DNA from: Mycobacterium sp. UM_WGJ
GTDB lineage: Bacteria > Actinomycetota > Actinomycetes > Mycobacteriales > Mycobacteriaceae
DNA length: 64,000 nt
Assembly: GCF_000455125.1 (NCBI RefSeq)
Contig: NZ_AUWR01000011.1
Location: 1-64,000 of the forward strand
Direction of reading: 5' to 3'
In this document: positions 64 to 18,840 of the stretch, in pieces
Layout: every line of letters begins with the position of its first letter
Numbering within the stretch: position 1 is the stretch's first letter
Notes under the pieces: generated by a model
The model's database searches: none
Told to the model about the DNA's origin: nothing
What the model saw: only the letters and a program-made list of their open reading frames with translations
Position numbers and translations under genes: made by a program

Positions 64-1470
64 TTAACCCCGGCTTGCGCTTCTTGGTTCGCCCAGTTCG
101 TGCCGCAGCTGGTCGATAACGGCTTGGAAAGCTGATTCGTAGGTGCCGCTATTTCTCACGCGATGTTCGCGTACTAGTTTCGCGAAACGTCGCGGGTGAA
201 TCTCAGGCCAGTACGGTGAAAATACAAATATTTGCCTTACCTTCGTTGTTGGGCCATTCCGTCGCCATGCATATTTCCTCGGCCAAAATCGAGCCTCAGC
301 CGTAGTTATGCCGGCAAGGGTAGCCTGAACCCATCCCGGTGGAATCAAAGTGCGCCATCCGGTTCCATTCGCTAAAACGCAAAACGGACTGTCACTCACG
401 GTGCATACGTTGCCGTGAGCTAGCAATTCGCCACACCAGCAGCACGGTGCGAACCCTTCAATGGCCAGTCGCACACACGCTGGAAGTCCATCGAGGTCAA
501 GGATGCGCCCGGAAGTGTGCTTTGACCTGGGAGAGGGAGGCGCCCAGGCTTTAGCGGAACTGCCCTGCTTAATGGCATCCATGTTAAATTGGTTATCAAA
601 ATAGCGATAGCCGATTTTTTTAATCTCACCCCGTGCTGCTGCAGCCGCGGCCGCCGCGGCTTGGGCGTCGACATCAGGGTGGTCTAACGCCACAATCTGA
701 CCCTCGCGACGCACCACGCGATGTTCAATACCATCACATATCACAGCCACGCCACCACCGTTGTCCCAGTCGGGAAGGGTGATGGTTACCGGCGGCCACG
801 CAGATGTGTGGTATTTCCTTTCGCGGGCTCCCTTATCGGACCCACCCTGTGGCGAATCCTGCATATCTGTTGCAAGCGCGGCTTCAGCCTGAAGCGGCGA
901 CCACCCCATGTCGATGTATGTGGCGATCTCACCTGGACTAAGGTTGGTATTGATCCAGCGGTGTGCGACGCTGGGCGCTATACCTCGCCTCTGGTACGTC
1001 ATCGCGTCCTCAAGCCCGATGCCAAACGCCTTCCAGTCCGCCCAGTCTGCTAACGGGATGTTTGAGTTGCGTTGCCACTGGTAGATCTCATTGCCGGTGA
1101 AACCGCAAGCGATCAAGCGCTTGAGTTCCGTCACCGCAAACCCGCAATCTAATAGCTCTTCCAGTTCGTTAACTGGCCGGACGTTGGCTACGTAGCGGCC
1201 AGGTGCTCTCCAGCCATTGAGCAGTTCGAGCATTTCTTCGAAACTTAGGGGTGCGTCTATGAAGCGTGCCATTCGATACAATGATTGCAGACGTAATCCA
1301 GCGGCAGCCCACCGTTTTGCATCCTCCGGCCCGAGGCCCGCGGCACCCAGCCTCTTCGCATAGCTGTGCACGTTCCAGACATCTAAACCGGCTGAAATCC
1401 AGCGCTCGCGGTCTTGTGGCCCGAATAGAGGCTCGTGCGGCTCGTTGAAATTCTGAGTGTTAGATTCCAT
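64..1470 (-). CDS. hypothetical protein with W-x2-aG helical repeats and a Cys cluster
   Basis: A 468-residue protein that I do not recognise. The N-terminal half (residues ~20-210) repeats a loose pattern in which a Trp is followed by an Ala/Gly-rich turn and a Pro-x-x-Ala helix start (RWISAGL, RWAAAGL, HRWINTNLSP), suggesting stacked short helices. Around residues 340-365 lies CCWC followed by two more cysteines, a possible metal site. A run of nine alanines sits near residue 275. The start is supported by AAGGGA six bases before ATG at 1470. The gene is visibly AT-richer than its neighbours, which suggests transfer. It lies downstream of the GIY-YIG gene on the same strand with a 244-base gap that is AT-rich and may hold its own promoter. 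The function is unknown. Confidence 0.7.
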   Translation of the reverse strand: MESNTQNFNEPHEPLFGPQDRERWISAGLDVWNVHSYAKRLGAAGLGPEDAKRWAAAGLRLQSLYRMARFIDAPLSFEEMLELLNGWRAPGRYVANVRPVNELEELLDCGFAVTELKRLIACGFTGNEIYQWQRNSNIPLADWADWKAFGIGLEDAMTYQRRGIAPSVAHRWINTNLSPGEIATYIDMGWSPLQAEAALATDMQDSPQGGSDKGARERKYHTSAWPPVTITLPDWDNGGGVAVICDGIEHRVVRREGQIVALDHPDVDAQAAAAAAAAARGEIKKIGYRYFDNQFNMDAIKQGSSAKAWAPPSPRSKHTSGRILDLDGLPACVRLAIEGFAPCCWCGELLAHGNVCTVSDSPFCVLANGTGWRTLIPPGWVQATLAGITTAEARFWPRKYAWRRNGPTTKVRQIFVFSPYWPEIHPRRFAKLVREHRVRNSGTYESAFQAVIDQLRHELGEPRSASRG

Positions 1471-1714: not shown

Positions 1715-2311
1715 TCATGCGTCAGCGATCGGCAGCGCCCGCGCCCGCGCTTCCGCAGCGGACCGAACGCTGGTGAGCACCCGGTGAAAACGATTGTGCA
1801 CGTTATCCTGAAGATTCAACGGCAAGTCCAGCGCGGTGAACAGCTCGCGCTCTAACACCCATGGCTCCGGCACCGCAATCCAGGAGACCAGAGCGTTGTG
1901 GGCCATCCACTGACTCAGCAACGCCTCGCCGGCCGCAAACGTGCGTCGCGTCCCCGATCCAACGCGCCGGAGTTCGATGCCGAGCTCATCGGCCAGCAGA
2001 CATCCCAACGTTTTGCGAAGCGTTGAACCTTTCGCGTTGCCCCGATAATGCTGCGTGATGCGCTTACGAATGTTCTGCTGGCTGGGTGGTTTTCCGTTTG
2101 CGGGCGGTCGGCTGGGACTGATTCCGGCGTAGAGCAACGTCAGTTCACCCTTCCGTTCGCATCGGGAGACATCAATGGCGGCCGGCAGCTGGCGAAACCA
2201 CCACCCGTAAACGCCCGGTTCCGGCGGGATGGGGCTCGGCCGCGTGAAGATCTCGCTTCTTAAATGCGGCACCGCGGCCAGGTAGCGATCGATCAATTCG
2301 CCTTGACTCAT
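1715..2311 (-). CDS. GIY-YIG nuclease-like protein
   Basis: A 198-residue protein with the two landmark strands of the GIY-YIG fold: GVYGWWF (~33-39) and LLYAGIS (~59-65). They are followed by an Arg-containing helix (RKRITQHYRGN), a Glu in LERELF and an Asn in PLNLQDN, where the family's catalytic Arg, metal-binding Glu and Asn fall. Such domains cut DNA in homing endonucleases, UvrC and some restriction enzymes. The start at 2311 is fixed by GGGAGGA six bases upstream; a longer reading from 2374 would overlap the helicase and lacks this site. It lies 28 bases after the HIT-PLD-helicase gene and is probably cotranscribed with it, so the two may act together. No second domain is visible and the substrate is unknown. 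Confidence 0.8.
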   Translation of the reverse strand: MSQGELIDRYLAAVPHLRSEIFTRPSPIPPEPGVYGWWFRQLPAAIDVSRCERKGELTLLYAGISPSRPPANGKPPSQQNIRKRITQHYRGNAKGSTLRKTLGCLLADELGIELRRVGSGTRRTFAAGEALLSQWMAHNALVSWIAVPEPWVLERELFTALDLPLNLQDNVHNRFHRVLTSVRSAAEARARALPIADA

Positions 2312-2339
2312 GGCATCCTCCCGGTAAGGCACATCGGCG

Positions 2340-5300
2340 TCACTGCGCCGGCCCTTCGGGCGGCAGCTCCACACCGAGCCGCGATCGCAGCTCCCCGGAC
2401 AGTGGCGTCAACAACCGGAACGTCACCAACATCGGCTCGGATCCTTCGTGGCGCAAGGGCACCACCCGACCCAGGTACGTGAACGCCCCGTCGGTCGATT
2501 TTCGCCGCATCCACAGCTCGATCGACTTGCCGGTCTGCAGCGCGTCGAGAATCTCCTTGCCCTTCTTGCCCCCGGGCGCCGTGGAAGACTGCGAGCTCCA
2601 CACGAAGATGTCGGGGGCTTCGAAGTGTTCGACATATGGCGTGCGATCCGCGCGTTTCACCAACGTAGCGAACAAGATCGCGTGCTGCTTAAGCGATACA
2701 TGGCCCGACTGCCAGTTTCCTGGGTTGAAAGCCTCACCGTAGAGCGCGGGAACGTCGCCCCGCTTGAACTGCTCACCGATCCGCGAGGCCAGCGGGTTGA
2801 CGTCATGCTGGTCGAGCCTGGACACCAGACGGGCAACAGGCCGCATATCAGAACGCCCCTCGATCGGGGCCACAGCGGGATTCGTTGATTCCAGGAGATA
2901 GCCCGAACCTTGCCGGCGCAGAAACTTGAGCGTACCGGCAACGCCTGATTTTCCGGCCGTCTCGACCAACACCGGCTGGTCCACATAGTCGCGGGCCGAT
3001 CCGCCGGTGATCCACTCAAACAGCAGCGGGTCGCCGTGCCGGATTGGATCCGGTCCGCCGTCCATCGAATCACCGTGGGCGAAGCACACGAAGTGACTCG
3101 ACGGCGCTAGCTCGTGGCCGGCCTGGCGCCGGATCGCGATCTCGCTGGCTGCGTGGTCGCTCCACGATGTCGCCGCGTCCGGCCCGCACGCCACGGTATA
3201 GTCGCCGAAGAACGGCACGTAGTCAACGTCAAGGCCGTCAGCAGCGGCAGCGCCGGGGCGCAGCACCAGGGTGCCGTCGATCTGGTCGAGCTCCACGGTG
3301 TGCGAGGTTCCGGGATGACCGGCCGATGGCCCGAACCAGCCTCGCAGCAACCCCGGCAGCGCATTGCCGGCCAAGCCGTCCCGGGTGGCCAGGGCAATCG
3401 CGCCCTTGGCGAACGACGCGTCGTACTCGATGCCGTCGGCGATGAATGATGCTTGCCCCGAGGGCAAATTCGGATGCTGCCGCCGGTCCAACCGAATGAC
3501 CGGATGCCCGTTTGCGTAGGCCAGCCGGCAGGTCCACGAGTGAGCCGCCGGGGCGTCCTTGTTGAGCAGGTAATTGGCCAGCCGGTACTCAATGATCTCG
3601 GCGACCAGCGAGTCGAAAATAGCCCCGAAGTCGTCGTCGACCACGAATGTCGGCACGATCCGGTCGGCTGCCAAGCGGAACAACGCGTTTGGCCGAGCAA
3701 CGCCCGATCCGGTGCCGGCCAGGTGGGTGACCGGCCATTTGCGCCAGTAGCCTGCCCACTTCTCCGCCGGCGCGGCGGCCACGTCGGGGAACTCCTTGGC
3801 CGGCACTTCGCGGGCAAGGCGCGGATCAGCGAGCAGCAGCCCGCGCGAGGTGTCCGCGTTGTGCGCGATCGCGTCCCCGGTGCGCAGCGCGCCGTCGTGC
3901 AGTAGTGCGCGGATCGCTACCAGCTTGTAGCTCTTGGCGATGCTCTCGGTTTGGAAGCCGCGCAGCGTGTCGCCGTGGGCATCGACGACGGCCGCCTCGC
4001 GTTCACCGAGCAGGCCGGCGGTCCGCAGGAAAGCGAACCAACTGCCGTGCTTGGCGGTCACGACCGCGGGATCGTGTCCGGCCCGAAGCGCCTGCGCAGC
4101 AGTGGGACGCAGCCCTTCTTCATCGAGATAGGAACGGCAGAAGTCCTCGACTGCATCGTGAGCGGTGATGCGCGACAGCTGGCGCAGCATCTCCACCACC
4201 GTCAGGTCGTAGTCGACCGAACAGCCATCGGGAAGCTCGAATTCGCCCGCCTCCAAGGCTTGCAGCACCTGCAGCGTCGTCGGGGCCTCTCGGCGGCCCA
4301 GGCTCAACAGCGTGCGAGGCTTGAGCAGGAACGATCGGTGGTTGCCGATGAAGTCGATCACCGCCAGCGCATCCTTGCCGTCCAAGGTTCGCAGGCCGCG
4401 GCCCAGCTGCTGCAGGAAGACCACTGGTGACTCGGTGGGCCGCAGCATCAGTACGGTGTCGATATCCGGTACGTCGAGGCCCTCGTTGAAGATATCGACG
4501 GTGAAGATCATCTCCAGCTCCCCGCTGCGCAGCGCCTCGATCGACGCATGCCGCGGTGCGCTGGTCGGCCCACTGTGCACTGAGGCGCAACGAATCCCGC
4601 GCGCGGTGAAGAACTCGGCCATGAAGTCCGCGTGGTGCTTAGTGACGCAGAACGCCAATGTGCGGGCACCGCGCCGAGATTGCCACTCGTCGAACGCCGA
4701 CTGGGCACGATCCTGGGTTTCGACGGCTGCTTCCAGGGCGGCCGGGTCGAACTTGCCGTTGCGCCATGGGATCGGCGTGAAGTCGACCGGGTCAGGCACA
4801 CCCCAGTAGTGAAACGGCACCAACTCGTCGCGCTGAATGCCTTCCGCCAGATCGCAGGAGAACACCAGGTTGTCGGCGCAGAGTGCCAGCAGGTCGGCGC
4901 CGTCCATCCGATCCGGTGTCGCCGTCAACCCCAGCAGGAAGTTCGGGGTGAAGTGGTTGAGCACGTTGCGGTAGGTGGCGGCCGCGGCGTGATGAAACTC
5001 GTCGACCACGATGTAGTCGAAGGCGTCGGGCGTAAAGCGGTCGAGGTTTCGTGACAGCGTCTGCACTGAGGCGAACACCACCTCGGCGCCGGGCTGCTTC
5101 TCGTCGCCGTAATACAGGCCCAGCGAGGCTTGGGGGATCACCTGGCGGAACACGTCCCGGCTCTGCTTCAGAATCTCCTCGCGGTGTGCAACAAACAGCA
5201 CCCGTACCACCTCGGGGCGTGCCGCGTCGAACGCCGCCAACCAGGTCTTGCCAAGACCCGTTGCCATCGTGACCATTCCGGCGCGGAACCCGGCGGCGCG

Positions 5301-6338
5301 GGTTTGTGTCAAAGCTCGCAGTGCCTCTTGCTGGATCGGGCGGGGTTCTGGTGGCGCTTCTGGCGCGTCGATGACTTCGACTGCTTGCGGAACGTGTGCT
5401 GGTGCCGGCTGGTAGGCGGCGATCAGTTCGTCGGTCAGCGGCAGGCTGCGCTCATCGCGCCACAGCGCCTGGAACCTTTCGCGCAGCTCAGCTGTGGCCC
5501 CCACCAGCAGGTTCCATTCGATGCCACTGTCGAGGCCCGACCGGCTCAGGTTGCTGCTGCCCACGAAGGCGGCCTCGGCGCGCCCGTGCGACGAATAGAA
5601 CAGATACGCCTTCGGGTGAAAACTGACATCCGGATCGTGAAAGACCCGGACGTCCAGCTCGTCGGGATGATCGTCCATCAGGTCGTGCAGCCGGGCGAGT
5701 GCGGCGAGCTCGGTCAGCGATAGGTAATCAGTGGTGAGAATCCGCACGGTTGCGGCGCGCTCCAGGGCGTCCTGAAGCGCCCCGATGATCAGATTCAGTC
5801 CGGACATCTTGATGAAGCTGACGACGATGTCGACGTGGTCGTAATCGACGTCGCGTAGGTGCTGCACCAACTCAGGCAGTAGCAACCGCACCTGGCCGTC
5901 GACCAACAGTGGTGTCTTCGATGTCAGCCCGGGCTCTTCGAGACTCTCGGCTGGGTCGGCCAAGTAGTTGCCGCGAGAAGGGATCACGTTGCGCACGCCG
6001 CCGCGCGGGTCCGCGATGTCGCCGGTGTAGCGCGGGATGACGTGGAGGTGCAGGTGGTCGACGGTCTGGCCGGCGGCCCTCCCGGCGTTGAAGCCCACGT
6101 TGAACCCGTCCGGTTCGTGGCGCTGCGCGATGTGGGCACGCACGTCGTCAACCAAGGCCATCAGATCGATGCGTTCTTCCGGGGTGGCCGCCCACCAGTC
6201 GCTGATCTGGCGGCGCGACACCACCAGTGCGTGGCCTGGATTGACGGGAAAGGCGTCCCACACCGCGAAGGCGGACCGGTTCGAGGCAATCCACTCGGCG
6301 CGGGGGATGTCGAAGAACGGGGACTCCGGGGAGGGCAT
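2340..6338 (-). CDS. HIT - PLD-like nuclease - SF2 helicase - DUF3427 fusion protein
   Basis: A 1332-residue multidomain protein. Residues 1-110 are a HIT domain with the histidine triad HLHLHV (H95, H97, H99), typical of nucleotide hydrolases or transferases. Residues ~160-290 are a phospholipase D-like nuclease domain with FHPK (H241, K243) and GSSNLS. Residues ~335-700 are a superfamily 2 helicase with ATGLGKT (~359-365), DEFH (~446-449), LTATP (~473) and QQLGRGLR. The C-terminal third resembles the DUF3427 module found behind such helicases. Helicase-PLD proteins are recurrent in bacterial defence loci; the HIT domain in front is unusual. One HxK is seen, so the PLD part would need to dimerise for a full active site, as in other single-motif members. 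It is transcribed divergently from the Rad50-like gene. The start ATG has only a weak GAAAG before it. Confidence 0.85.
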   Translation of the reverse strand: MPSPESPFFDIPRAEWIASNRSAFAVWDAFPVNPGHALVVSRRQISDWWAATPEERIDLMALVDDVRAHIAQRHEPDGFNVGFNAGRAAGQTVDHLHLHVIPRYTGDIADPRGGVRNVIPSRGNYLADPAESLEEPGLTSKTPLLVDGQVRLLLPELVQHLRDVDYDHVDIVVSFIKMSGLNLIIGALQDALERAATVRILTTDYLSLTELAALARLHDLMDDHPDELDVRVFHDPDVSFHPKAYLFYSSHGRAEAAFVGSSNLSRSGLDSGIEWNLLVGATAELRERFQALWRDERSLPLTDELIAAYQPAPAHVPQAVEVIDAPEAPPEPRPIQQEALRALTQTRAAGFRAGMVTMATGLGKTWLAAFDAARPEVVRVLFVAHREEILKQSRDVFRQVIPQASLGLYYGDEKQPGAEVVFASVQTLSRNLDRFTPDAFDYIVVDEFHHAAAATYRNVLNHFTPNFLLGLTATPDRMDGADLLALCADNLVFSCDLAEGIQRDELVPFHYWGVPDPVDFTPIPWRNGKFDPAALEAAVETQDRAQSAFDEWQSRRGARTLAFCVTKHHADFMAEFFTARGIRCASVHSGPTSAPRHASIEALRSGELEMIFTVDIFNEGLDVPDIDTVLMLRPTESPVVFLQQLGRGLRTLDGKDALAVIDFIGNHRSFLLKPRTLLSLGRREAPTTLQVLQALEAGEFELPDGCSVDYDLTVVEMLRQLSRITAHDAVEDFCRSYLDEEGLRPTAAQALRAGHDPAVVTAKHGSWFAFLRTAGLLGEREAAVVDAHGDTLRGFQTESIAKSYKLVAIRALLHDGALRTGDAIAHNADTSRGLLLADPRLAREVPAKEFPDVAAAPAEKWAGYWRKWPVTHLAGTGSGVARPNALFRLAADRIVPTFVVDDDFGAIFDSLVAEIIEYRLANYLLNKDAPAAHSWTCRLAYANGHPVIRLDRRQHPNLPSGQASFIADGIEYDASFAKGAIALATRDGLAGNALPGLLRGWFGPSAGHPGTSHTVELDQIDGTLVLRPGAAAADGLDVDYVPFFGDYTVACGPDAATSWSDHAASEIAIRRQAGHELAPSSHFVCFAHGDSMDGGPDPIRHGDPLLFEWITGGSARDYVDQPVLVETAGKSGVAGTLKFLRRQGSGYLLESTNPAVAPIEGRSDMRPVARLVSRLDQHDVNPLASRIGEQFKRGDVPALYGEAFNPGNWQSGHVSLKQHAILFATLVKRADRTPYVEHFEAPDIFVWSSQSSTAPGGKKGKEILDALQTGKSIELWMRRKSTDGAFTYLGRVVPLRHEGSEPMLVTFRLLTPLSGELRSRLGVELPPEGPAQ

Positions 6339-6502
6339 TGTTCACTTTCGGGTCGGGCGGCCGTTTCGCGGCGGTTGGCCAGCATTATGCCGAGCGGCGC
6401 CGACAGCCTCGCGCGATGGACGACGGCAAGACACCCGAGCAGTCGTCGTCCGTCGGCCCGGTATGCGAAGCTGCGGGTTACTTCGGCGGAAAGGACGTGA
6501 CA

Positions 6503-8959
6503 GTGGACGGCGTGGAGCTCGGCGGGTCGGTCGAGGCGGAGGTCTGGGAGCTGCTCGACGCCGACGAGACGGTGAGCGAAGAGACCGCCTACCTGGTCGC
6601 CGCGGCACTGCACGGTGACGACGACCTCACCGAGCAGCTGGGCGGCCAGGCCCCGGTACCCCAGCGCCCCGACACCACGACGACAGATACGCCGGCGCCG
6701 TTGCGGGCGTTTCTGCGTTCGATCACGGTGTCGGGATTCCGCGGGATCGGCCCGCGCGCAACGCTGGAACTCAACCCGTACTACGGGATCACGGTGATCA
6801 GTGGCCGCAACGGATCCGGGAAATCCAGCTTCGCCGAGGCTCTGGAGTATGCCCTGACGGGTTCGAGCTACCGGTGGGACAACAAGAAGGGGCAGCACTG
6901 GGAAACCTCCTGGCGGAACCTGCACAGGGGCGAGCCGGCGGCGATCGCCATCGACTTCGCGATGGAACCCGACGATGCGCGCGGCGGAACCACCGCCACC
7001 GTCGGCGTCGACTGGGCGACGGGGGCAGAGCTGCACGGTGCCCGCCGGTGGTCGCAGATCAAAGGGCAGAAGCGTGAGCCGGTCACCGCGCTCGGCTGGG
7101 ACCAGGCGCTGGAGACTCACCGCCCGCTCATGTCCTACGACGAGCTCGGTGGGCGGTTGGAGGATTCCCCGTCGGCACTTTACGACTCGCTCAACCGCCT
7201 CCTCGGGCTGGACCTGATCGCCGACGCCGACAACCGGCTCAAGGACGCCGAGAAGCAGCTGAGCGGGCCACGCAAGGCCGCCAACGAGGGCCGTACCCAA
7301 TTGCGCAAGGGCCTGGACAGCTCGTCTGACCCCCGCGCGGTGCAGGTCAAAAAACTGACCGCGCGCACGCCCTACGACCTCGAGGCGATCACGGCGACGA
7401 CGCTGGGCACCAACACCGCTCAGGCGGCCACCATCGCACGGCTGCGGGCGCTGGCCGCACTGGTTGTGCCCGAGCCGGCGAACGCCGCCGCGGTCGCGAG
7501 CGAGCTGCGGGCCGCGATCGATGACCAGGTGGCAGGCGCCGATGCCGCGGTGAAGGCGATGACGGCGCGGGCGGCGCTGCTGCGCGAAGCGCTGCATCTG
7601 CACGCCGACATCGGTGACGGAGCCTGCCCAGTCTGCGAGACCGGGGCATTCGACGCCGACTGGCGGACGGCGGCCGAGGAACGGTTGAAGGAAGCCGACG
7701 CGAGCACCATCAAATATCAGGCGATGACGCAGCGGTTGGCGCGGGCGCGGTCGGCGGCCGACGGATTCTTCGGAACCATCACGAGCCAACCTCCGATCGA
7801 GGGAGTCGACCTGCCTGCGTTGTCGACTTTCAACGACGCACTGGCGAGTGCGCGGTCGGCGCCCGACAGCTTGTCCGACCTGCCGACCCACCTGGAGGTG
7901 GCGGCATTGGACCTGGCTGAGGCCGCGTCCGCGCTGCGGGCCGAGGCCGCACAGCGTGCCGCCGAGCTGGAGGACGCTTGGGCGCCGATCGCCCGCACGA
8001 TCGCGGCGTGGGTCGAACTGGAGACCGCAGCCCGCAACGACGACGACCGCCTCGACCAGGTGACGACGGCCTTGAAGTGGTTGCGCGCCAATGCCGAAAC
8101 GCTGCGGGACCGGCGCCTGGCCCCGATGGTGGGCCAAGCTCAGCACATCTGGGGCCGCATGCGTCATGAGAGCAACGTCGACCTGGGCAGCATCACCCTG
8201 GAGGGAACTGCCACCCGGCGCCGTGCCGTCATCGACGGGACCGTGGACGGGGTACCGGCCGGAGCCCTGTCGGTGATGAGCCAGGGCGAACTGCACGCAC
8301 TCGCGCTGGCGTTGTTCATCCCGCGAGCGACCACCGCGGCCAGCCCGTTCCGGTTTATCGTGCTTGACGACCCGATCCAGGCGATGGACCCAGCCAAGAT
8401 CAGCGGGTTCCTCGACGTGTTGATTGAGCTTGCGAAGACCCGTCAGGTGATCGTTTTCTCCCACGATGACCGGCTGCCGGCGGCCATCCGCGCCCGCTCG
8501 GTGCCCGCCCAGCTGCTCGACGTCACCCGAGAGCATCAGTCGGTGGTCGTGGTGAAGGAGAACGACCTGCCGGCCGAGCGGTACGTCGCTGATGCCGAAG
8601 CGGTGATCTTCGATGAGGACCTGGATGACCTGATCAAGCGGAAGGCGGCACCCGGCCTGTTCCGCATGGCGATCGAGGCCGCCGCGCACCAGCGGTTTTT
8701 CAGCGACCGGGCCAAGGCCGGCGTGGCCTACCACGAGTCCGATGCCGAGTGGGAGAAGGCGATGACGACCCAGAGTCGGGTGGCGCTGGCGCTGACCGGG
8801 GACGCCTCAGGCGATGTGTCCGGCTGGAAAGCCTATCGGCCACACCGCTTCCCGACGATAGCCATCTGCGCTTCGGGCGTCCACAAGGGCGCCGCGCTCG
8901 ACCGCAACAGCGTCGCGGATCTCCGCAAGACGGTGCGCGATATCGTGGAGAACCGTTGA
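6503..8959 (+). CDS. Rad50/SMC-like AAA ATPase with CPVC hook
   Basis: An 818-residue ATPase. After a ~75-residue leader it shows FRGIGPR, then Walker A GRNGSGKSS (~100-108), a long helical middle with CPVC (~374-377) at its tip, an ABC signature MSQGEL (~591) and Walker B VLDDPIQAMD (~619) followed by a switch His in FSHDD. This order is that of Rad50/SbcC-type proteins, where CxxC hooks dimerise through zinc. I start it at GTG 6503 because GGAAAGGA sits seven bases before it; in-frame upstream starts at 6338 and 6416 lack such a site, and 6338 would overlap the divergent gene. The stop overlaps the next gene (TTGA). No Mre11-like nuclease is adjacent, so the nuclease partner, if any, may be encoded by the neighbouring RecB-like, PLD or GIY-YIG genes. 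Confidence 0.88.
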   Translation: MDGVELGGSVEAEVWELLDADETVSEETAYLVAAALHGDDDLTEQLGGQAPVPQRPDTTTTDTPAPLRAFLRSITVSGFRGIGPRATLELNPYYGITVISGRNGSGKSSFAEALEYALTGSSYRWDNKKGQHWETSWRNLHRGEPAAIAIDFAMEPDDARGGTTATVGVDWATGAELHGARRWSQIKGQKREPVTALGWDQALETHRPLMSYDELGGRLEDSPSALYDSLNRLLGLDLIADADNRLKDAEKQLSGPRKAANEGRTQLRKGLDSSSDPRAVQVKKLTARTPYDLEAITATTLGTNTAQAATIARLRALAALVVPEPANAAAVASELRAAIDDQVAGADAAVKAMTARAALLREALHLHADIGDGACPVCETGAFDADWRTAAEERLKEADASTIKYQAMTQRLARARSAADGFFGTITSQPPIEGVDLPALSTFNDALASARSAPDSLSDLPTHLEVAALDLAEAASALRAEAAQRAAELEDAWAPIARTIAAWVELETAARNDDDRLDQVTTALKWLRANAETLRDRRLAPMVGQAQHIWGRMRHESNVDLGSITLEGTATRRRAVIDGTVDGVPAGALSVMSQGELHALALALFIPRATTAASPFRFIVLDDPIQAMDPAKISGFLDVLIELAKTRQVIVFSHDDRLPAAIRARSVPAQLLDVTREHQSVVVVKENDLPAERYVADAEAVIFDEDLDDLIKRKAAPGLFRMAIEAAAHQRFFSDRAKAGVAYHESDAEWEKAMTTQSRVALALTGDASGDVSGWKAYRPHRFPTIAICASGVHKGAALDRNSVADLRKTVRDIVENR

Positions 8960-9357
8960 CCACCACCGGCGAACTCCTGCTCGCGCGGGCCGACGCACTG
9001 CTGGACTCCCCGGACGGCGCGGCAGTGGGCAACTCCGCGCGCCTCGCGGCATTCCTGGCACGCCAGGCGGTGGAGGAGCTGATCGACGCCCGCTGCGCGG
9101 TGCTGTGCGGGGGGCAGGCGGCGGTCGGGACGCAGAAGGCGAAACTCGCCGTACTTAAGTCGCTCGACACCACGCCGGCCGGCGGAGTCCTCATCGACGC
9201 CTGGCACCAGCTGAGCGGCTTCTGCCACCAACACGCCTACCAGCTTTCGCCGACGGTGGGAGAGGTTCGGGTGTTGTGCGCGGCGGTTCGGGACGCATAC
9301 TTCAGCGGGATACGGTCGGGGACGGTGCCTGCTGCAGGAGACACAGCTGGCACATGA
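8956..9357 (+). CDS. small helical protein coupled to the Rad50-like ATPase
   Basis: A 133-residue, largely helical protein beginning at TTG 8956, which overlaps the stop of the ATPase gene by four bases (TTGA). No ATG or GTG lies in frame near this point, and an upstream reading inside the ATPase gene looks non-coding. It contains FLARQAVEELIDA and DAWHQLSGFCHQHAYQLSPTV. The clustered histidines in the last part and the two-helix layout loosely recall HEPN-type or DUF4145-like helical proteins, but the HEPN RxxxxH motif is not evident. The tight coupling suggests it is a partner subunit of the ATPase. The function is not established. Confidence 0.65.
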   Translation: MTTTGELLLARADALLDSPDGAAVGNSARLAAFLARQAVEELIDARCAVLCGGQAAVGTQKAKLAVLKSLDTTPAGGVLIDAWHQLSGFCHQHAYQLSPTVGEVRVLCAAVRDAYFSGIRSGTVPAAGDTAGT

Positions 9358-9366
9358 CAGCGGCAC

Positions 9367-12300
9367 TCATGTGCTCGCGCCAGCACCATGACCCCTTTCG
9401 ACGTATTCCACCACCGCATTCAGCGTCGCGATCAACCGCATGTCCTCCACGTTGCGTGCGCGGGCGTTCAGCAGCTCCTCGGTGCACACCAGATATGCCA
9501 GGCACCGGGCTCGGCTGATCGCGACGTTGAGCCGGTTGCGGGAGAACAGAAAGTCGGCGCCTCGGGAGATGTCCTCCCCGGTGGAGGTGGTCATTGAGAA
9601 GAACACCACCGCCGCCTCACCGCCCTGAAACTTGTCGACGGTGCCGACCGCCACACCACGGGTCGACGCGTCGGCATCGAGCCGGTCTCGAATCATCCGC
9701 ACCTGATGGTTGAAGGGTGCGACCACCATGAAATCTGAGACTGTCAGCGGGTTTTCGTCGCCGTCCTCGTCGGTCCAGATGGTGCCGACCAGCCGAGCGA
9801 TCTCGGCCGCGATCAGCTCTGCCTCCTGCTCCGAGGATGTGCTGTTGCCGCGGTGCTCGGCCCGCAGCCAGCGCAGTCCGGTTCCGGCCACCGTGTTCTG
9901 CTGCTCGCAGCTCGAATCATGGCCGAGTTGGCCGGCATAGATCTCCTCGGAGATGAACCGGCACACGTCAGGGTGCATGCGGTAGGTCTTCGACAAGAAG
10001 ACACCACGATCGCGGGGCATGATCGCGGCCTCGCCGAGGATGTGTTCCAGTACGCTGCGCCCGCTGTCGTTGGGGTGGCTGGCCTGGGCGACCTGCGACA
10101 GTTGCAGCGGATCACCGAGCAGAACGACATTGCGCGCCGACAATGATGCCGCAAGGGCGTCGGCCAGCGACACTTGGCCGGCTTCATCGATCAACAACAC
10201 ATCGACGGGGGAGTTGCGCATCTCCTTCGAACCGAAGAGCCACGTCGTACCGGCGACGAGGTTTACATCGCGCCGGGCGCACTTGGTTTTGCTGCCGGCC
10301 GTGGTGCCGTCAGGAACCCATGTCGAACCGCTCTTCGGCTTCTTCACCGCGTTGAGCTTGTCGATATCGCCGTTGTCGCGGAACAGCTCCACCACCTTCT
10401 TCAGCAGGTGGTCGACTGCGTGGTGCGTCGTCGCGGTAACCCCGACGCGTCGTCCCTCCAGTATCAACGTGCGAATGAGACGCGCTGCGCTGTAAGTCTT
10501 TCCCGCGCCCGGAGGGCCCTGGATCGCGACGAAGCTGTTGTCGAGTTTGGTCACCCAGCGCCTCATGTCGGCCAGATCGTCGGTGAAAAGACCACCGAGC
10601 GGCCCGGCACCGTCGGTGAAGCACGGTAGCTCGCGGCGCAGCAGCGCCATTGTCACCGGGTTGGTGTCGGCACCGTCGAGCAGCTGGGCGGCAAAGCCCG
10701 AGAGTGCCTCGCGCTTCGGTTCCGGACCGATCCAGTCGTGCAGGAGCACCACACTGGGCGGCAGAATCCCGGCTTCCCGCACCTTCGTGCCCCACTGCAG
10801 GTCGAGAAGGTGGTTCCTGCGGTCGAGGTTCTCAATCGCGCAAGAGAACCGTTGGCCTTCGGCGTCGACGAACATGACACTTCCGCCGTCGTAGGGGAAA
10901 CGGTGGAGCGATTGCGGGGGGAAGACGAAGCGCAGCCCCGGGGTGATCGGCTTCCCGGTCTTGCCCAGCCGCTCGACCTCGCCGACGTACTGTAGTTCTG
11001 TCAGAGCTTCGGGGTCGTCCCGTAGGGCGGTGGTGTCGCCCTGCAGCTTGGCCATCTTCGGCCCGATGTAGGCGAACCATTCCCGGCGCCAGTATCCGAG
11101 CAGATCACCGAGAAGGTACTCGGAAGTATCGGCGGGGAAGGCGTGCAACTGCTCTACGTGCACGTCGAGTTCCGGCAACCCGGGGTCCGGTTCGAGGACG
11201 CTTTCGCGCCACGCCAACTCAGCCGGACGGTGCTGTACCAACCAATCTCGTAGCGCCATCGTCGCTCGCACATCGTCTTCGTTGTAGACGGCGATGCGGT
11301 CCAATCGGGCTTGGCCGCCGTGTTTCATGAATTCTTCGTATTGCAGTACCGCGCCGGCGCCCTTGTCGATGTCGTGGCTGCGTTGAAAGTCGGTGAGCCG
11401 CTCCAGGGCTTTGAGGCCGTAGGATTCGGTGCCGACCTGGATACTGTTGCGGGCCACCAGCAGAAGGTCCACGAACAAGCCGGTCTCGATCAGTTCCGCC
11501 AACGCCCGCTGCGCGACGTTGTGCTTCTCGGCGAGCGTTACCAGCGACGATCGTTCGGTGTGGTTGTAGTGGTAGACGTGCATCTCCGGAAAGGCCGCGC
11601 GCCGCTGCACCAGGTAGTCGATCAGTTCGGCTGCCGCCACGGCTTCGGCCTCGAGATCGTGCGCCCGCCATTCGCGGTAGTGCCACTGCCTGTCGCTGTC
11701 GCGTTCCAGCAGACCGAACAGGAAGAACAGTCCGGTCTCGACACGCCAGAACGGATGCCCCTCGAAGTCGAGGAACACATCGCCGTCGTCGGGGCGGGGA
11801 AGTTCCTCGAATCCATGCCCCCACATCGGATCTTCGCCGGGTTCGATGAGCTGGAACGGGGGTGCGGCGTCTTCGCCCAGCAACGCTGCTTCAATCTGCA
11901 GCCGTGCCTGTTCGGTCAATCGCTGCAGCCGCCGCGGACCCAATCCCTCCACGGGTGTCTGTGCCTGAGCCAGCGCGGTCATGTTCGGGATACCGGCAAT
12001 CTCCAAAGTTGCGGTCTCCGGTGCGCGAATCCCGGCCACCAGGCTCAGCGCACCCTCGTCGCGCCACTGCTGATCGCAGAGCGTTCTGAACTCGCAGAAA
12101 TCGCAGTACGCGCAAGGCCTCGGAACAGTACCGGCTTCGGGTCCGCCCGCCAGCGTCTCGGTCAGCTGCTTGCGCAATCGGCGCCAGTAGGGGCTGAAAT
12201 CATTGACCCGCAGCGTCTCGGTCTTCCCCGAGCCCAACCACAGGTGCATGTGCTCGGGACGCACCCCGGTGAGTGCTTCCAACGCGTCGGCGTAGAAACA

Positions 12301-12744
12301 GAGCTGCAACACGTGGCCGGGCTTGGCTTCGGCGCGCGCAAGTTTGGCGTCCACCGGCTCGTAGCCGCCGTCCGCGGTGCGGACCAGGAAGTCGGCGATG
12401 CCGCGCACTCCGTCGTGGATGAACGGCATCTGATAGATGATGTCCCACCCGTCGTCGAACGGGTTGCCGACGCGAGCGACCCACGACTGGAAGGTCTCGC
12501 CTCGGCCTCTTGCGGGCACCTCCAGAACAGACTTGCGGTTCGCCCGGTACTCGTCCAGACACTGCTGCTCATGCTGCAATCCCTTGTCGAGCAGCAGCTT
12601 CGCGAACTCGCCGAACGTCGACCTCGGCTGCGGCAGGGTTCCGCCATCTACCTGGTTACGCAACGTCAGGTAGTGCGCGCAGTCCAGCCAAGCGGTGATC
12701 TTCGACGGCGTCAGCAGATACTCGGTTGGTATCAGGTCACTCAC
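9367..12744 (-). CDS. TM0106-type RecB-like nuclease fused to a UPF1/Dna2-like SF1 helicase
   Basis: A 1125-residue protein. The N-terminus is a RecB-like PD-(D/E)xK nuclease (GIADFL followed by PVDAKL) with Cys22 and a CxxCxxCx5C group near residues 209-222. That arrangement of four or five cysteines is typical of iron-sulphur-bound RecB/AddB nucleases. A middle RNase H-like segment follows (VFLDFEGHPF ... YNEDDVRA), as in the TM0106 family. The C-terminal half is an SF1 helicase with Walker A GPPGAGKT (~742), LLIDEAGQ, a KTYRMH motif and FQGGEA/ISRARC. The start GTG at 12744 is preceded by AGGAGGA at ideal spacing. It converges on the ATPase/small-protein pair with only nine bases between them. 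The role is likely end-processing of DNA or RNA-DNA hybrids; whether it serves repair or defence is open. Confidence 0.88.
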   Translation of the reverse strand: MSDLIPTEYLLTPSKITAWLDCAHYLTLRNQVDGGTLPQPRSTFGEFAKLLLDKGLQHEQQCLDEYRANRKSVLEVPARGRGETFQSWVARVGNPFDDGWDIIYQMPFIHDGVRGIADFLVRTADGGYEPVDAKLARAEAKPGHVLQLCFYADALEALTGVRPEHMHLWLGSGKTETLRVNDFSPYWRRLRKQLTETLAGGPEAGTVPRPCAYCDFCEFRTLCDQQWRDEGALSLVAGIRAPETATLEIAGIPNMTALAQAQTPVEGLGPRRLQRLTEQARLQIEAALLGEDAAPPFQLIEPGEDPMWGHGFEELPRPDDGDVFLDFEGHPFWRVETGLFFLFGLLERDSDRQWHYREWRAHDLEAEAVAAAELIDYLVQRRAAFPEMHVYHYNHTERSSLVTLAEKHNVAQRALAELIETGLFVDLLLVARNSIQVGTESYGLKALERLTDFQRSHDIDKGAGAVLQYEEFMKHGGQARLDRIAVYNEDDVRATMALRDWLVQHRPAELAWRESVLEPDPGLPELDVHVEQLHAFPADTSEYLLGDLLGYWRREWFAYIGPKMAKLQGDTTALRDDPEALTELQYVGEVERLGKTGKPITPGLRFVFPPQSLHRFPYDGGSVMFVDAEGQRFSCAIENLDRRNHLLDLQWGTKVREAGILPPSVVLLHDWIGPEPKREALSGFAAQLLDGADTNPVTMALLRRELPCFTDGAGPLGGLFTDDLADMRRWVTKLDNSFVAIQGPPGAGKTYSAARLIRTLILEGRRVGVTATTHHAVDHLLKKVVELFRDNGDIDKLNAVKKPKSGSTWVPDGTTAGSKTKCARRDVNLVAGTTWLFGSKEMRNSPVDVLLIDEAGQVSLADALAASLSARNVVLLGDPLQLSQVAQASHPNDSGRSVLEHILGEAAIMPRDRGVFLSKTYRMHPDVCRFISEEIYAGQLGHDSSCEQQNTVAGTGLRWLRAEHRGNSTSSEQEAELIAAEIARLVGTIWTDEDGDENPLTVSDFMVVAPFNHQVRMIRDRLDADASTRGVAVGTVDKFQGGEAAVVFFSMTTSTGEDISRGADFLFSRNRLNVAISRARCLAYLVCTEELLNARARNVEDMRLIATLNAVVEYVERGHGAGAST

Positions 12745-12985
12745 CGGACGATCCTCCTGTCGCGTTGTTGCGACGGTGATAAAACGGCGGCGGATACGCC
12801 GGCTCATACGGTGCGCACACCTCATGTGCGGGGTCGTAGTATCCGCCCGAGCAGGTCTGGTCGTAGCCGGGCTGGGGGTTGGCGGGTAGATACGGCTGGC
12901 AGATCTGGTGCACGGGGTCGTAGTAGCCGTTGCCGCCACAGGGGGCCAGCGGGATCACGATGCCCGCTATCAGTACGTCGATCAT
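12737..12985 (-). CDS. small Cys/Tyr/Pro-rich putative exported peptide
   Basis: An 82-residue peptide with a short hydrophobic start (MIDVLIAGIVIPLAP) followed by two imperfect copies of a GYYDP-x2-x2-C-x-PY unit (GYYDPVHQICQPY and GYYDPAHEVCAPY). Each copy also contains an upstream cysteine, so four cysteines could form disulphides. It looks secreted or surface-exposed. Its last codons overlap the ribosome-binding site and GTG of the nuclease-helicase gene by eight bases, so translation of the two may be coupled. No clear Shine-Dalgarno sequence precedes its ATG. The function is unknown, and the short length keeps confidence moderate. Confidence 0.55.
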   Translation of the reverse strand: MIDVLIAGIVIPLAPCGGNGYYDPVHQICQPYLPANPQPGYDQTCSGGYYDPAHEVCAPYEPAYPPPFYHRRNNATGGSSGE

Positions 12986-13126
12986 CGCCGTTGGCCTGGC
13001 ACGGCGTTGTTGCCGGGGTGGGGAACCGCGACTGCGATCTCTTTCAACTTGAAAACCTTCCGTAGCTGAACCGCCGCAATAGTTATAGGCCGGGGCGCCG
13101 ACACAAGGCGTTGGTTCGCCCAGTTT

Positions 13127-13570
13127 TCAGCGCGATTCCCAGCGCCAGCCCCGATGCTCCTGCCGATCGGTGGCGCAGGCCAGCAGCGACCACCGTGGCC
13201 CTTGCCAGGCGAAGATCGCTACCTGCCCGAAACGCAGCCCGACTGCACGGGCCTGATCATCGTCCAGGCCGAACACCGCCCGACTCTCTTGGCGATGAAT
13301 GCCATCGAAGCTGCCGCCGATCGCCCGGATCGAGGCGACACCTGCGGCCTGCTGTTCGCGGTCCAACGCGGTCATCCGTGCGACGCTCTCCGCGCTGATG
13401 GGATCGGTGTTGGGTTGCATCGCGGTGATCGCGTGCAGCAGGCCCAGAGGAGTACGGGTGCAACCAATTTCGTCGCTATATAAGGGCCATGTTCTGCGAG
13501 CATTGAGTCCTGAGTGAGGGGGCCGATCCATGATCGAGATCGCAGTCATCGCCTTCGTCGTGGTGAACAC
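13127..13570 (-). CDS. DUF3293-like hypothetical protein
   Basis: Up to 147 residues. The C-terminal ~95 residues match the DUF3293 pattern as I know it: ITAMQPN near the start, a helix, then an ESRAVFGLD segment and a conserved FGQVAIF near the end. The function of the family is not established. The start is uncertain: GTG 13570, ATG 13549 and ATG 13531 are all in frame, and none has a strong ribosome-binding site. It is transcribed away from the HTH/vWA operon, with the tandem palindromes lying between the two units. Confidence 0.6.
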   Translation of the reverse strand: MFTTTKAMTAISIMDRPPHSGLNARRTWPLYSDEIGCTRTPLGLLHAITAMQPNTDPISAESVARMTALDREQQAAGVASIRAIGGSFDGIHRQESRAVFGLDDDQARAVGLRFGQVAIFAWQGPRWSLLACATDRQEHRGWRWESR

Positions 13571-13611
13571 CTTGGCGCCCGGCGCGGCCGCCGAGATCCG
13601 GCCGTCGATAC

Positions 13612-13646
13612 ACCGCAGTTATTGCGGTAACCGCACTAACTGCGGT
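13612..13646. promoter_or_regulatory. two tandem 17-bp palindromic operators
   Basis: Two palindromes of the form ACCGCA-N5-TGCGGT stand side by side with one base between them: 13612-13628 (ACCGCAGTTATTGCGGT) and 13630-13646 (ACCGCACTAACTGCGGT). The repeat period is 18 bases. They end exactly at a candidate -10 hexamer (TATGGT, 13646-13651) that lies five bases before the ATG at 13657, so a bound dimer pair would cover the -35 region. Autoregulation by the HTH protein encoded next is my inference. Confidence 0.75.
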
Positions 13647-13656
13647 ATGGTGGAGT

Positions 13657-14043
13657 ATGTCCAACCGATACAAGCTGATTCGCAGTCACCTTGACCACGC
13701 CGAGTTGGCCAACTCGGCGGCCCAAACGCTGCAGCACCTTCGTTCTGTTCTGACGGAGGTTGGCCAGTTGCTCGATGAGCAGCTGGCCAACGCGGTCGTC
13801 GACGACGAGCTGTCGCTCGCGGCGGCAGGAAAGAGCGCCGGCCTCACCGAAAACGCGGTGGGGCCACGGTTGGCCAACACGGCCAGGTTGGCGCCGTACG
13901 TGACGGCGGGAGCGGCCCGAATCACCGCCGAAGACGTCAAACGTGCCCGCCAAGACAAGTACGCCCGCAAGTCGCTGCCGCCGGCGGCTCCTGCCGAACC
14001 GATGCGGTTCAAGCCGCGCCGAAGCACCAAACCGTCCCGATAA
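13657..14043 (+). CDS. small HTH-type DNA-binding protein, putative autoregulator
   Basis: A 128-residue protein. Residues ~10-50 form a leucine-rich helix, residues ~53-80 (LSLAAAGKSAGLTENAV) look like a helix-turn-helix, and the last 25 residues are rich in Lys, Arg and Pro. This suggests a small DNA-binding protein. The start ATG lies five bases after a TATGGT -10 hexamer, so the mRNA is probably leaderless. Two palindromic operators overlap the promoter. The vWA gene follows after 17 bases with a good GAAAGGA site, so the two form an operon. The exact family is not recognised. Confidence 0.7.
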   Translation: MSNRYKLIRSHLDHAELANSAAQTLQHLRSVLTEVGQLLDEQLANAVVDDELSLAAAGKSAGLTENAVGPRLANTARLAPYVTAGAARITAEDVKRARQDKYARKSLPPAAPAEPMRFKPRRSTKPSR

Positions 14044-14060
14044 CCCCGAAAGGACCGACC

Positions 14061-14741
14061 ATGTCCAATCAGAATCTCACCTGGCTCGTGTTCCTGCTCG
14101 ACCGCTCCGGCTCGATGCAATCGATCAAGTCCGATGTCATCGGAGGATTCGAGGCGTTCATAGCCGAGCAACGCGCGGGGGAGGGTCGCTGCGCGGTGAC
14201 CCTGGCGCAGTTCGACAACGAGTACGAAGTCGTCTACCACGGCATCGGCCTCGACGACGTGCCGACGCTGAGTTTGCACCCGCGCAACAGCACCGCGCTG
14301 TTGGACTCGATGGGTAAGCTCATCACCGACACCGCCGCCGAGATCGGTGCGCTGGACGAGGCCGACCGGCCCGGCACCATCGTCCTGGCGATCATGACCG
14401 ACGGGCTGGAAAACGCCAGCAACGAATGGCGTCGTCCCGACATCAAAGCCCTTGTGGAACGACAGACCAATGACCACGGTTGGGAGTTCCTCTACATGGG
14501 TGCCGACCAGGATGCCGTCGAGGTGGGCAGGGGGCTTGGTGTCAAAGACGGACAAGCCATCACCTACGCGAGGGGCAAGTCACGCGAGTCGATGAGGGCA
14601 ACGTCGATGAATATCCGCGGTTACCGCACCGCCAAACTGAGCGATGCGGACGCGGCGATGGTCGGATTCTCTGCCGAACAACGCGCAGAGCTGGCGGACG
14701 ACGCTCAAGCGGGACGTGGGGATGCCGGGCGGGAGCGCTAG
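14061..14741 (+). CDS. von Willebrand factor A domain protein
   Basis: A 226-residue cytoplasmic protein with a vWA fold. The metal-ion-dependent adhesion site is complete: DRSGSM (D14, S16, S18), a threonine in NSTALLD and an aspartate in MTDGLENAS. No signal peptide or membrane segment is seen. Bacterial vWA proteins of this kind often act with MoxR ATPases or as protein scaffolds, but no ATPase is adjacent. It is the second gene of an operon with the HTH protein, preceded by GAAAGGA. The last ~50 residues are charged and probably flexible. Confidence 0.82.
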   Translation: MSNQNLTWLVFLLDRSGSMQSIKSDVIGGFEAFIAEQRAGEGRCAVTLAQFDNEYEVVYHGIGLDDVPTLSLHPRNSTALLDSMGKLITDTAAEIGALDEADRPGTIVLAIMTDGLENASNEWRRPDIKALVERQTNDHGWEFLYMGADQDAVEVGRGLGVKDGQAITYARGKSRESMRATSMNIRGYRTAKLSDADAAMVGFSAEQRAELADDAQAGRGDAGRER

Positions 14742-14863
14742 CCGCCTTTGCCTCGGCATATTCGGCACACGGGCGCGGGTATGGATGTGCAATTGATCGC
14801 CTGGCGAACGGCATTAGGCCGCTGCTCGATGGGATTCCCATAGCGACCGACATCGAAATGTGC

Positions 14864-15082
14864 CTACATGGGCCGTTCCCTCTCGGCCAGCGGCTGCGGC
14901 GGGTCCTCACCGCTGGCTTCCATATCGGCGATCACGTCGTCCATCAGACGCAACAAGCCGGCGAACGCCTCCGCAGGGGATGCCTCGAGCCACGATAGGG
15001 AGGGGAACTCCACGCACAATGCGACCCACTCGCCATCTTCGGGGGACCACTCAACGCGGTAGGTGTAGTCTTCACCGAGTTC
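14864..15082 (-). pseudogene. HicB-like antitoxin remnant
   Basis: The segment reading ELGEDYTYRVEWSPEDGEW ... FPSLSWLEASPAEA ... GEDPPQPLAER is the partly degraded RNase H-like half of a HicB antitoxin. There is no ATG, GTG or TTG in frame close to the domain start; the nearest in-frame start is at 15295, with an unrelated-looking 70-residue leader. After LAER the usual C-terminal ribbon-helix-helix region is missing and the frame stops three residues later. No HicA toxin is found beside it. I call it a truncated remnant, but a functional stand-alone domain cannot be excluded. Confidence 0.5.
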
Positions 15083-15333
15083 TCGGTCGGCGGCCGGCGT
15101 GTGCGTCCTGCCGGGATGTGGCAGACCTGTTGCAGCCGTTGACGAAGACGCATCAGCACCGTCATTTCTCCCGTCTTGTCCTACCGCACTCTGGGGAAGC
15201 GCGGCTGGTGGGGCAGCCAGTCGAATAGCTCGGCTGCCCGTTGCGCACACCGTATCCGGAACGGCTGACAGGCCAGCGGGATTTTGCGAGCACAACGATC
15301 TGTCAGTGCCTGGCGCTATCCTGAGGTTGCGTC

Positions 15334-15474
15334 ATGAGATGCCGTTGCCAAGCTCCGACTGGGCGGCACGCCAACCCCACGCTCGTGGGTGGCTCGGATG
15401 ACGACGCGGCCTGCATCAACCGGTGCCGGCAAGAGCGCCTCTGTCAGCAGGGGCCCGAAAGCTCGGTGGAGTGA
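15334..15474 (+). CDS. 46-residue Cys-rich small protein
   Basis: A short reading frame with CxC at residues 3-5 and three further cysteines in an ACINRC-x5-C arrangement near residues 28-38, a pattern that could bind zinc. Its stop codon overlaps the next ATG as TGATG (15472-15476), the classic sign of translational coupling. A TATCCT hexamer (15317-15322) lies shortly upstream. The coding case rests on the overlap and the cysteine spacing. I do not recognise a family. Confidence 0.42.
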   Translation: MRCRCQAPTGRHANPTLVGGSDDDAACINRCRQERLCQQGPESSVE

Positions 15475-15776
15475 TGGCGGAATTGGATCTGGCGAAGTTG
15501 CGTGCTGCCGCTGCGGAATTCGGATATTGGCCAGCGACTACCGACGATAAGCACCTGGCGAAGCTACGCGACGACAATGATCGCTTCGACGGCGTGAACT
15601 GGATTGGGCGACACCGTTTTCGCGGACATGATCCGCACCCAGCGCCGACCCATGATGATCCGGAGCGATGGGATTGCGATTGCGGCGAAGTGTGGCGCGG
15701 CCACACCCGCGGACAGACCAGTAGGAGATACGCACACCTCAGGGCCCAAAGAGATAGGAGAACCCCGGATGACTGA
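15474..15776 (+). CDS. hypothetical protein with CDCG motif
   Basis: A 100-residue polar protein starting at ATG 15474, where the start overlaps the stop of the preceding small Cys-rich frame. It has a charged helical N-terminus, a central GVNWIGRHRFRGHD segment, and WDCDCGEVWRG near residue 75, which may bind metal. A longer start at 15423 would overlap the small frame. It overlaps the phosphatase gene by eight bases, so it is probably part of one operon with it. The function is unknown. Confidence 0.6.
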   Translation: MAELDLAKLRAAAAEFGYWPATTDDKHLAKLRDDNDRFDGVNWIGRHRFRGHDPHPAPTHDDPERWDCDCGEVWRGHTRGQTSRRYAHLRAQRDRRTPDD

Positions 15777-16752: not shown

Positions 16753-16916
16753 CCGATGATAGCGTCGGCGCTACCCATTTCGGAACTATCTATGTCCTTC
16801 CGGCACGGCGGCAGCGCATTTTCCCGGGCCGATGATCGGCGCCGGGATCGGTCGCACCGGCTACGTCTACGTATTCGCCGCGCAGTGCCGCGCTGAGGCC
16901 CTGCGACCATGTACCC

Positions 16917-18581: not shown

Positions 18582-18594
18582 GCCGAAGGGCTCT

Positions 18595-18814: not shown

Positions 18815-18840
18815 CTTCCAAGAACTGGTTGCTCAGTGGG

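Follow-up and report, generated by a model that had tools for sequence, protein, structure and literature searches.

Gene content and organization of the locus

The first 64 kb of contig NZ_AUWR01000011.1 (163,086 bases), from the 4.47-Mb genome of Mycobacterium sp. UM_WGJ and hereafter called the window, carry five supported genes at positions 1715-12744, here designated A to E, and this locus is a genuine defence island in which one module, the gene pair C-D, is under-described; the pair is of the RloC/PrrC and Rad50-like kind. Genes A and B are read leftward, C and D rightward and divergently from B, and E leftward toward D, the stops of D and E being separated by 9 bases. Gene A (1715..2311, minus strand) encodes a GIY-YIG nuclease-like protein of 198 amino acids (Pfam GIY_YIG_2, 2.6e-32) from an ATG at 2311, a longer GTG start at 2374 being possible. 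Gene B (2340..6338, minus strand) encodes a homologue of SauUSI-type (type IV) restriction enzymes of 1332 amino acids with HIT, PLD nuclease, superfamily 2 (SF2) helicase, S24-like and DUF3427 parts. If C starts at the ATG at 6416, the divergent stretch between B and C (6339..6415) measures 77 bp and presumably holds both promoters. Gene C (approximately 6416-8959, plus strand, start uncertain) encodes a Rad50-like coiled-coil ABC ATPase with a CPVC zinc-hook and a C-terminal domain of ~130 amino acids carrying R-x3-E...H, and D (8956..9357, plus strand) begins at a TTG in a 4-nt overlap with the stop of C and encodes 133 amino acids predicted from their motif to be HEPN-like. Gene E (9367..12744, minus strand), a looser neighbour, joins a TM0106-type RecB-like nuclease to an RNase H-like domain and a DNA2-like superfamily 1 (SF1) helicase. 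The open reading frames (ORFs) and strands of the initial annotation, its domains where stated (Pfam and TIGR03491 matches), the divergence of B and C, the overlap of C and D, the close spacing of the D and E stops and the presence of two helicases (B and E) all hold, while five of its six genes are supported.

The closest named match of C, among the best 80 of at least 525 relatives, is in Mycolicibacter engbaekii (88% identity), and the ratios of nonsynonymous to synonymous substitution rates (dN/dS) against this species are 0.13 for A, 0.12 for B, 0.13 for C and 0.18 for D; A-D are therefore real coding sequences under purifying selection. The M. engbaekii locus (L160) aligns to the window as a single block (1795-9291, 86% DNA identity) whose ends fall within A and within the tail of D. 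Distributions given below refer to 151 genomes of the family and 396 of the phylum, with the own genome counted in, and to these 80 named C loci, whose flanks extend up to 10 kb and are in many cases shorter. Almost all of the 80 loci come from Actinomycetota, to which three metagenome-assembled genomes (MAGs) of Acidobacteria are added.

Gene B as a homologue of type IV restriction enzymes

SauUSI has the order PLD nuclease, SF2 ATPase, coupler and SRA target recognition domain (passages of PMC7913695). In B, a PLD nuclease domain is likewise followed by an SF2 helicase within one chain, and Pfam matches were obtained for HIT (1.5e-20), PLDc_2 (1.3e-7), ResIII (3.8e-38), Helicase_C (1.2e-15) and DUF3427 (2.9e-11, its C-terminal half). 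Residues 144-677, comprising the PLD and helicase parts, match PDB 7clg at 1.1e-77, 7CLG being the accession that the SauUSI paper gives for the SauUSI structure, and the type IV models are the top PADLOC matches of B (mREase_IV, 4.7e-111). B thus resembles SauUSI in its order of PLD domain, SF2 ATPase and C-terminal DUF3427 and in keeping the PLD HxK, but it carries a HIT domain at its N terminus and, ahead of DUF3427, an S24-like stretch, has Tyr where HxKx4E has Glu, and matches the C-terminal (recognition) part of 7clg weakly (8.4 bits, not significant). The HIT HxHxH, PLD HxK, Walker A GxGKT and DEFH motifs are kept in all nine aligned HIT-type sequences (the window and eight relatives). 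DUF3427 has been proposed as a reader of modified DNA (passages of PMC7159879 and PMC3874153). Judged by homology, B is probably a type IV enzyme and is predicted to cut modified DNA.

The N-terminal HIT domain and the S24 (LexA-type) peptidase-like region are the unusual features of B, and no mention of the HIT form of DUF3427 proteins was found in the passages of PMC7159879 and PMC3874153. The S24/LexA-like stretch (residues 1067-1163) scores below the Pfam cut-off (21.9 vs 23.3 bits); its Ser-Met and later Lys are kept in six of the seven sequences having the region, the exception being that of genome G117, and the stretch may be a self-cleaving switch. The region is absent from the B of locus L216 and, together with the DUF3427 end, from that of L230 (1032 amino acids). 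Full HIT-type B is rare, occurring in 4/151 family and 4/396 phylum genomes.

The C-D gene pair

In Pfam, C matches SMC_N (4.2e-16) and AAA_23 (1.4e-14), with AAA_13 remaining under the cut-off (19.2 vs 36 bits), and like RloC it is a Rad50-like ABC ATPase with a CxxC zinc hook (C399-P-V-C402). Across 63 C sequences (alignment A6, the window and 62 of the 80 loci) the Walker A residues, both hook cysteines, the DDP of Walker B, R745 and E749 (numbering from base 6431) are invariant. A tblastn search places D directly downstream of C at 60 of the 80 named loci, and the 4-nt overlap between the stop of C and the start of D recurs in 57 of the 80. The two genes very probably form one functional unit. 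D is without a family in the Pfam scan, and a search of solved structures with D gave no match.

The distribution of C is patchy (33/151 family genomes and 19/396 phylum genomes). With these frequencies, and with those of full HIT-type B, the genes were rejected as core repair genes, and the single-copy core genes that would have contradicted the initial annotation are not what is found. Cargo of phages or plasmids was also rejected, as C had no match in a phage collection (E-value 1e-10) and matched only three plasmid records (E-value 1e-20), each at <60% identity.

A possibly shared R-x3-E...H domain and its possible relation to HEPN RNases

RloC and PrrC are counted as HEPN RNases, and the linkage of HEPN proteins with restriction is seen as layered defence (passages of PMC3710099). 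Their catalytic triad is R-X3-E-X36-52-H, and in RloC the replacement of any of the three residues abolishes activity (passages of PMC2610378). In D, R36 is conserved in 66/66, E40 in 65/66, H91 in 63/66 and H93 in 65/66 aligned sequences (alignment A5, the window and 65 of 77 D ORFs, some of the 77 being wrong-frame ORFs), and the E-to-H spacer is 49-52 in all 62 countable sequences. At the end of C the corresponding residues are conserved in 49/49 (R), 49/49 (E) and 48/49 (H) sequences (alignment A8 has 49 rows). When D was compared by profile with 22 segments along C, the four holding the start of the C-terminal domain scored 23.8-24.8 and the other 18 at most 17.6; the C-terminal domain of C and D seem to share a domain. 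In a relaxed Pfam scan of the 66 D sequences the commonest match was DUF4145 (8/66 at E-value ≤1, best 0.0058), which is a HEPN family according to passages of PMC3710099, and further HEPN matches were PF05168 (1/66, 0.057) and HEPN_SAV2148 (1/66, 0.18).

Several results weigh against a kinship of both domains with HEPN RNases. Direct comparison of D with the end of C by hhalign gave a probability of 10-16% (E-value 0.002-0.003), and the E-to-H spacer in C is 64-73, outside the 36-52 of RloC. Against 12 RloC-like sequences, the end of C reached an hhalign E-value of 0.12 with the motif columns aligned, decoys giving 0.08-0.62, and D had no useful match to the RloC domain (0.58). The lowest E-value in the relaxed scan of D belonged to the unrelated FAZ1_cons (0.00046, three members), and in that of the end of C (49 rows) there was no HEPN family among the matches listed, the commonest of which, Neurochondrin (5/49), was dismissed with the others as chance-like. 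The classical HEPN Rx4-6H is also not kept in the window D, because position 88, which is R in 28/66 sequences, is G. Because FAZ1_cons had the lowest E-value, the end of C had no HEPN family among its listed matches and the RloC profile comparison was not significant, D and the end of C are described as HEPN-like rather than HEPN, and an RNase activity of C-D is predicted with somewhat less than even confidence.

C resembles RloC and PrrC in its Rad50-like head, its CxxC zinc hook, its R-x3-E...H C-terminal domain and, in several lineages, its linkage to restriction genes, but C-D differs in having a second, separate R-x3-E...H protein (D), a longer spacer in C and a sub-threshold AAA_13 match. 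The pair was not filed as RloC because the RloC spacing is not found in the C-terminal domain of C itself, where the spacer is 64-73, while a spacer of 49-52 sits in the separate protein D; RloC membership was rejected, the profile test not being significant. A search of viral contigs with the RloC-like sequence L260 gave no match. Five of ten RloC-like plasmid genes (L262, L266, L267, L268 and L270) lie near or beside annotated restriction or methylase genes (PaeR7I, BsuBI/PstI twice, an N-6 methylase and McrBC), one of the ten records being unannotated in the stretch.

Comparison with Lamassu and Pbe systems

Scoring with defence models, as suggested by the initial annotation, gave type IV models as the best matches of B and left D without a PADLOC match; for C the best PADLOC family was LmuB (4.7e-23). 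This match, the Rad50-type head, the CPxC hook and the DNA nucleases among its neighbours would suit a C-D that acts on DNA, like SbcC or like LmuB with an LmuC-like D, and that loads on foreign DNA and passes it to B or E as effectors, with no RNase involved. C-D indeed resembles Lamassu (LmuB/LmuC) in its hooked Rad50-like protein, small partner gene and top PADLOC match. LmuB, however, is marked by a Gln replacing the Walker B Glu (passages of PMC10586767), whereas C has the invariant DDP, its Walker B ending in Asp-Asp, and no match to LmuA was found among the best 25 PADLOC matches per protein for the six window proteins scanned. In addition, the partners change while C-D stays, and the conservation of R, E and H in D points to catalysis. 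A purely DNA-acting C-D is consequently regarded as improbable.

The PbeABCD system is composed of PbeA and PbeC with PbeB and a DndE-like PbeD (passages of PMC10853773), and the locus is similar in pairing a PLD and SF2 helicase protein with a hooked ABC ATPase and in having small partners. B is nevertheless SauUSI-like rather than PbeA (4.4e-29 for PbeA vs 4.7e-111 for mREase_IV), C is not PbeC (1.5e-5), and PbeB, PbeD and DndE were not among the matches listed for the six window proteins scanned. Membership in both Lamassu and Pbe was rejected, as their defining features are lacking. Pbe genes adjoin C-D in two loci, L052 and the Hoyosella locus L048 (listed also as L185), and more distant PbeA/PbeC relatives occur near C in L178. 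No paper plainly describing the C-D pair was found by titles and abstract starts, a search outside which most subscription papers lay, and a general classification of ABC ATPases in conflict systems, cited in PMC10853773, may already sketch the pair.

Linkage of B with C-D and exchange of partners

Within the family, C (33 genomes) and B-type genes (26 genomes) occur together in six genomes, and in all six, the own genome included, they adjoin, always divergently; the gap measures 24-119 bp in five of them and 507 bp in G052. Four further phylum genomes carry C and a B-type gene on different contigs, so that the two are neighbours in 6/10 genomes overall. In the phylum sample, C and B-type genes are found together in six genomes vs 1.8 expected (p 0.005), and the four HIT-type B genomes (two pairs of congeners, the own genome included) all have C, relatedness being uncontrolled in both counts. 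In a quick tree of 68 C sequences, the ten B-linked C are distributed over several distinct positions (7 label changes), namely the window with L160; L163, L199, L165 and L166; L051; L195; L216; and L230, with B near but not next to C in L216 and L230. The tree leaves L181 and L224, with a B-type gene 2-5 kb off, unlabelled as B-linked, lacks L231, and contains a row for L163 translated from L037 (same place, same genome).

The C and D genes of G052 (L051) are 86.5% and 86.8% identical to those of its congener G147 (L052) and have different partners, which amounts to a natural partner-swap experiment. In G052, C-D sits between a HIT-type B and E; in G147, it lies beside PbeA and PbeC homologues, an assignment resting on the Hoyosella copies. 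Other neighbours of C include a type I HsdR (L062, C partial), a type IIG-like enzyme (L033) and ZacC with an Hhe-like gene (L032), and restriction, Pbe, Zac, Hhe and BREX-type genes are all present among C neighbours in other genomes; with these neighbours and the type IV homologue B, the earlier designation of the locus as a defence island is upheld. The commonest Pfam families among 73 upstream neighbours of C were Helicase_C (10), ResIII (9), DEAD (9), PLDc_2 (7) and DUF3427 (6), which are parts of SauUSI-type and related helicases. These 73 upstream neighbours match 119 PADLOC families (best E-value 0) and 77 downstream neighbours match 71 (best 2.3e-269), compared with 20 families (best 2.9e-44) for 47 control genes (from 17-64 kb of the window and the 19 kb that follow), a comparison between sets of unequal size and gene length, where a single protein may match many families and the effects of islands remain. 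The two sets are 73/74 upstream and 77/78 downstream neighbours from the 80 loci, L234 being omitted as a near-copy of L233.

These associations can also be read as those of unlinked neighbours, a hotspot having gathered a type IV enzyme, a Rad50-like pair, a GIY-YIG gene and a RecB-like gene that each work alone and whose closeness reflects the landing site. The numbers of family genomes in which other genes occur with C agree with this, being at chance level for B (6 vs 5.7 expected) and not significant for E (18 vs 14.0, p 0.08) or A (4 vs 3.5), and the flanks examined contain no B-type gene at 69 of the 80 named C loci (a B-type gene was near 11, an E-like gene near 4 and an A-like gene near 3). 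In addition, C has very diverse neighbours, G019 and G117 carry a HIT-type B but no C, E and A often turn up where the other genes are lacking, and joint action is not required for defence genes to gather in islands. Against mere proximity stand the constant divergent orientation of B and C with their short gaps, the scatter of B-linked C over the tree and the excess of joint occurrence in the phylum, and independent assembly is held to be rather unlikely. On balance, and by a slight margin, C-D appears to partner restriction systems functionally.

Genes A and E as looser members

In M. engbaekii, A is 84% identical and lies next to B. The gene is present in 16/151 family genomes, and in the three that have both A and B (the own genome, G076 and G092) it adjoins B or is ~7 kb away; all 13 other A loci fetched are without B-E nearby. 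Gene E is an ordinary member of the TM0106-family RecB-like nuclease/helicase proteins, from which nothing notable distinguishes it (TIGR03491 RecB-like, 1.7e-56; RNase_H_2, 1.3e-21; AAA_12, 4.1e-28), and its homologues elsewhere are 48-62% identical over nearly the whole length. Close relatives of E (48-57%) are found in nine phylum genomes lacking any C or B match, and all 14 E loci fetched are without B and C nearby, their genomes having no B or C match anywhere. The three family genomes with E at ≥60% identity do have a B-type gene within 8 kb; in G011, a SauUSI-type gene is located ~8 kb away from E, without C. As far as gene distribution indicates, E is a recurrent but dispensable neighbour, because there is no E match in the 3.9 kb of the M. 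engbaekii contig after D and because it is found without B and C elsewhere.

The initial annotation had proposed that all these genes act as one system and had suggested a search for conserved neighbourhoods as a check. B-, C-, D- and E-type genes do occur together within ~12 kb, in three arrangements, in G052, L195 and L230 (the latter two actinobacterial MAGs) and L216 (an Acidobacteria MAG), with an A-like gene near in L195, and since such sets recur the combination is more than a one-off. These sets, and the proximity of A and B in the family genomes having both, could be taken as signs of one obligate defence machine of all five genes. The E of L195 and L216, however, is 32-35% identical over its length and that of L230 is 42% identical over the helicase part alone, none of them closer than a common chromosomal paralogue; the B of L195 is not of the HIT form; and B and C also occur apart. 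An obligate system is judged very unlikely in view of the many E and A loci lacking the other genes and of the M. engbaekii contig, where no E lies in the 3.9 kb after D. The claim of joint action thus stands well for C with D and more weakly for B with C-D, while for A and E the scattered loci speak against it and the family genomes in which they lie close to B speak for it.

Several arrangements were noted around E. A DUF3293 gene (13127), a VWA gene (14061) and a phosphatase-like gene (15604) lie to the right of E (region 9367-16752), with relatives near E in L240, L241 and L243 and near C-D in M. celatum L205 and Mycobacterium URHD0025 L174, and these genes would represent a shared hotspot or cargo set. 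In L142 (G011), a second, partial copy of the N-terminal part of E (56%) is located at 12344-12676, upstream of the full E at 15620-18919, and a gene start is repeated at 10166 and 13113, a local duplication. Between D and E in L230, an apparent toxin-antitoxin-like pair, named by eye, occupies 14040-14647. In L244 (G289; 4989-11803, plus strand), E follows a 1090-amino-acid protein whose start is, by eye, like that of PLD-type helicases, and this could be another pairing of E with a PLD-helicase.

Proposed function of the island

The favored reading, held at about even confidence, is that of a composite island in which B restricts, C-D is a separate shutdown unit and swappable companion of restriction systems, and A and E are non-obligate. 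The DUF3427 region of B would read modified DNA, the SF2 motor would translocate and the PLD domain would cut, as homology suggests. C, held by its zinc hook, may sense DNA ends or a disturbed or blocked restriction, and an ATP-driven change in C could then release a paired HEPN-like RNase made up of its C-terminal domain and D. Once released, the RNase would stop translation or otherwise shut the infected cell down, and A and E may add nuclease power in the island without being obligate parts. PrrC is linked to a type I system, and its backing up of EcoprrI is the well-studied case; C-D would serve restriction systems as an exchangeable back-up in much the same way.

A more specific and more doubtful proposal is that C-D represents a new two-gene class of double-HEPN Rad50-like RNases ('split RloC') of Actinomycetota and Acidobacteriota, in which the domains of D and the end of C would form one active site and which would be an interchangeable back-up for SauUSI-type enzymes with HIT, Pbe and type I systems, firing on blocked restriction or DNA ends. 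If true, this would point to a general design in which one self-shutdown module plugs into different DNA-restriction systems, and the case of PrrC and EcoprrI would extend to many actinobacteria, mycobacteria included. The different partners of C-D in G052 and G147 make it testable whether the trigger acts via the restriction partner or via DNA ends. In this way the island may illustrate how bacteria secure a fallback behind their first line of antiviral defence.

Other observations in the window

To the left of A, a gene at 64-1470 (minus strand) encodes 468 amino acids with no family match in the profile scans, and the G+C content across the first 1.6 kb of the window is 0.554 vs 0.64-0.69, making this DNA A+T-rich. 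A weak relative of this gene (26%) lies directly after D in M. engbaekii L160 (8124-8804). Farther to the right, three large adjacent genes at 40356-48819 (minus strand) are candidates by size for recD/recB/recC, and RecD/UvrD-type PADLOC matches occur somewhere within the 47-gene control set that includes this region.

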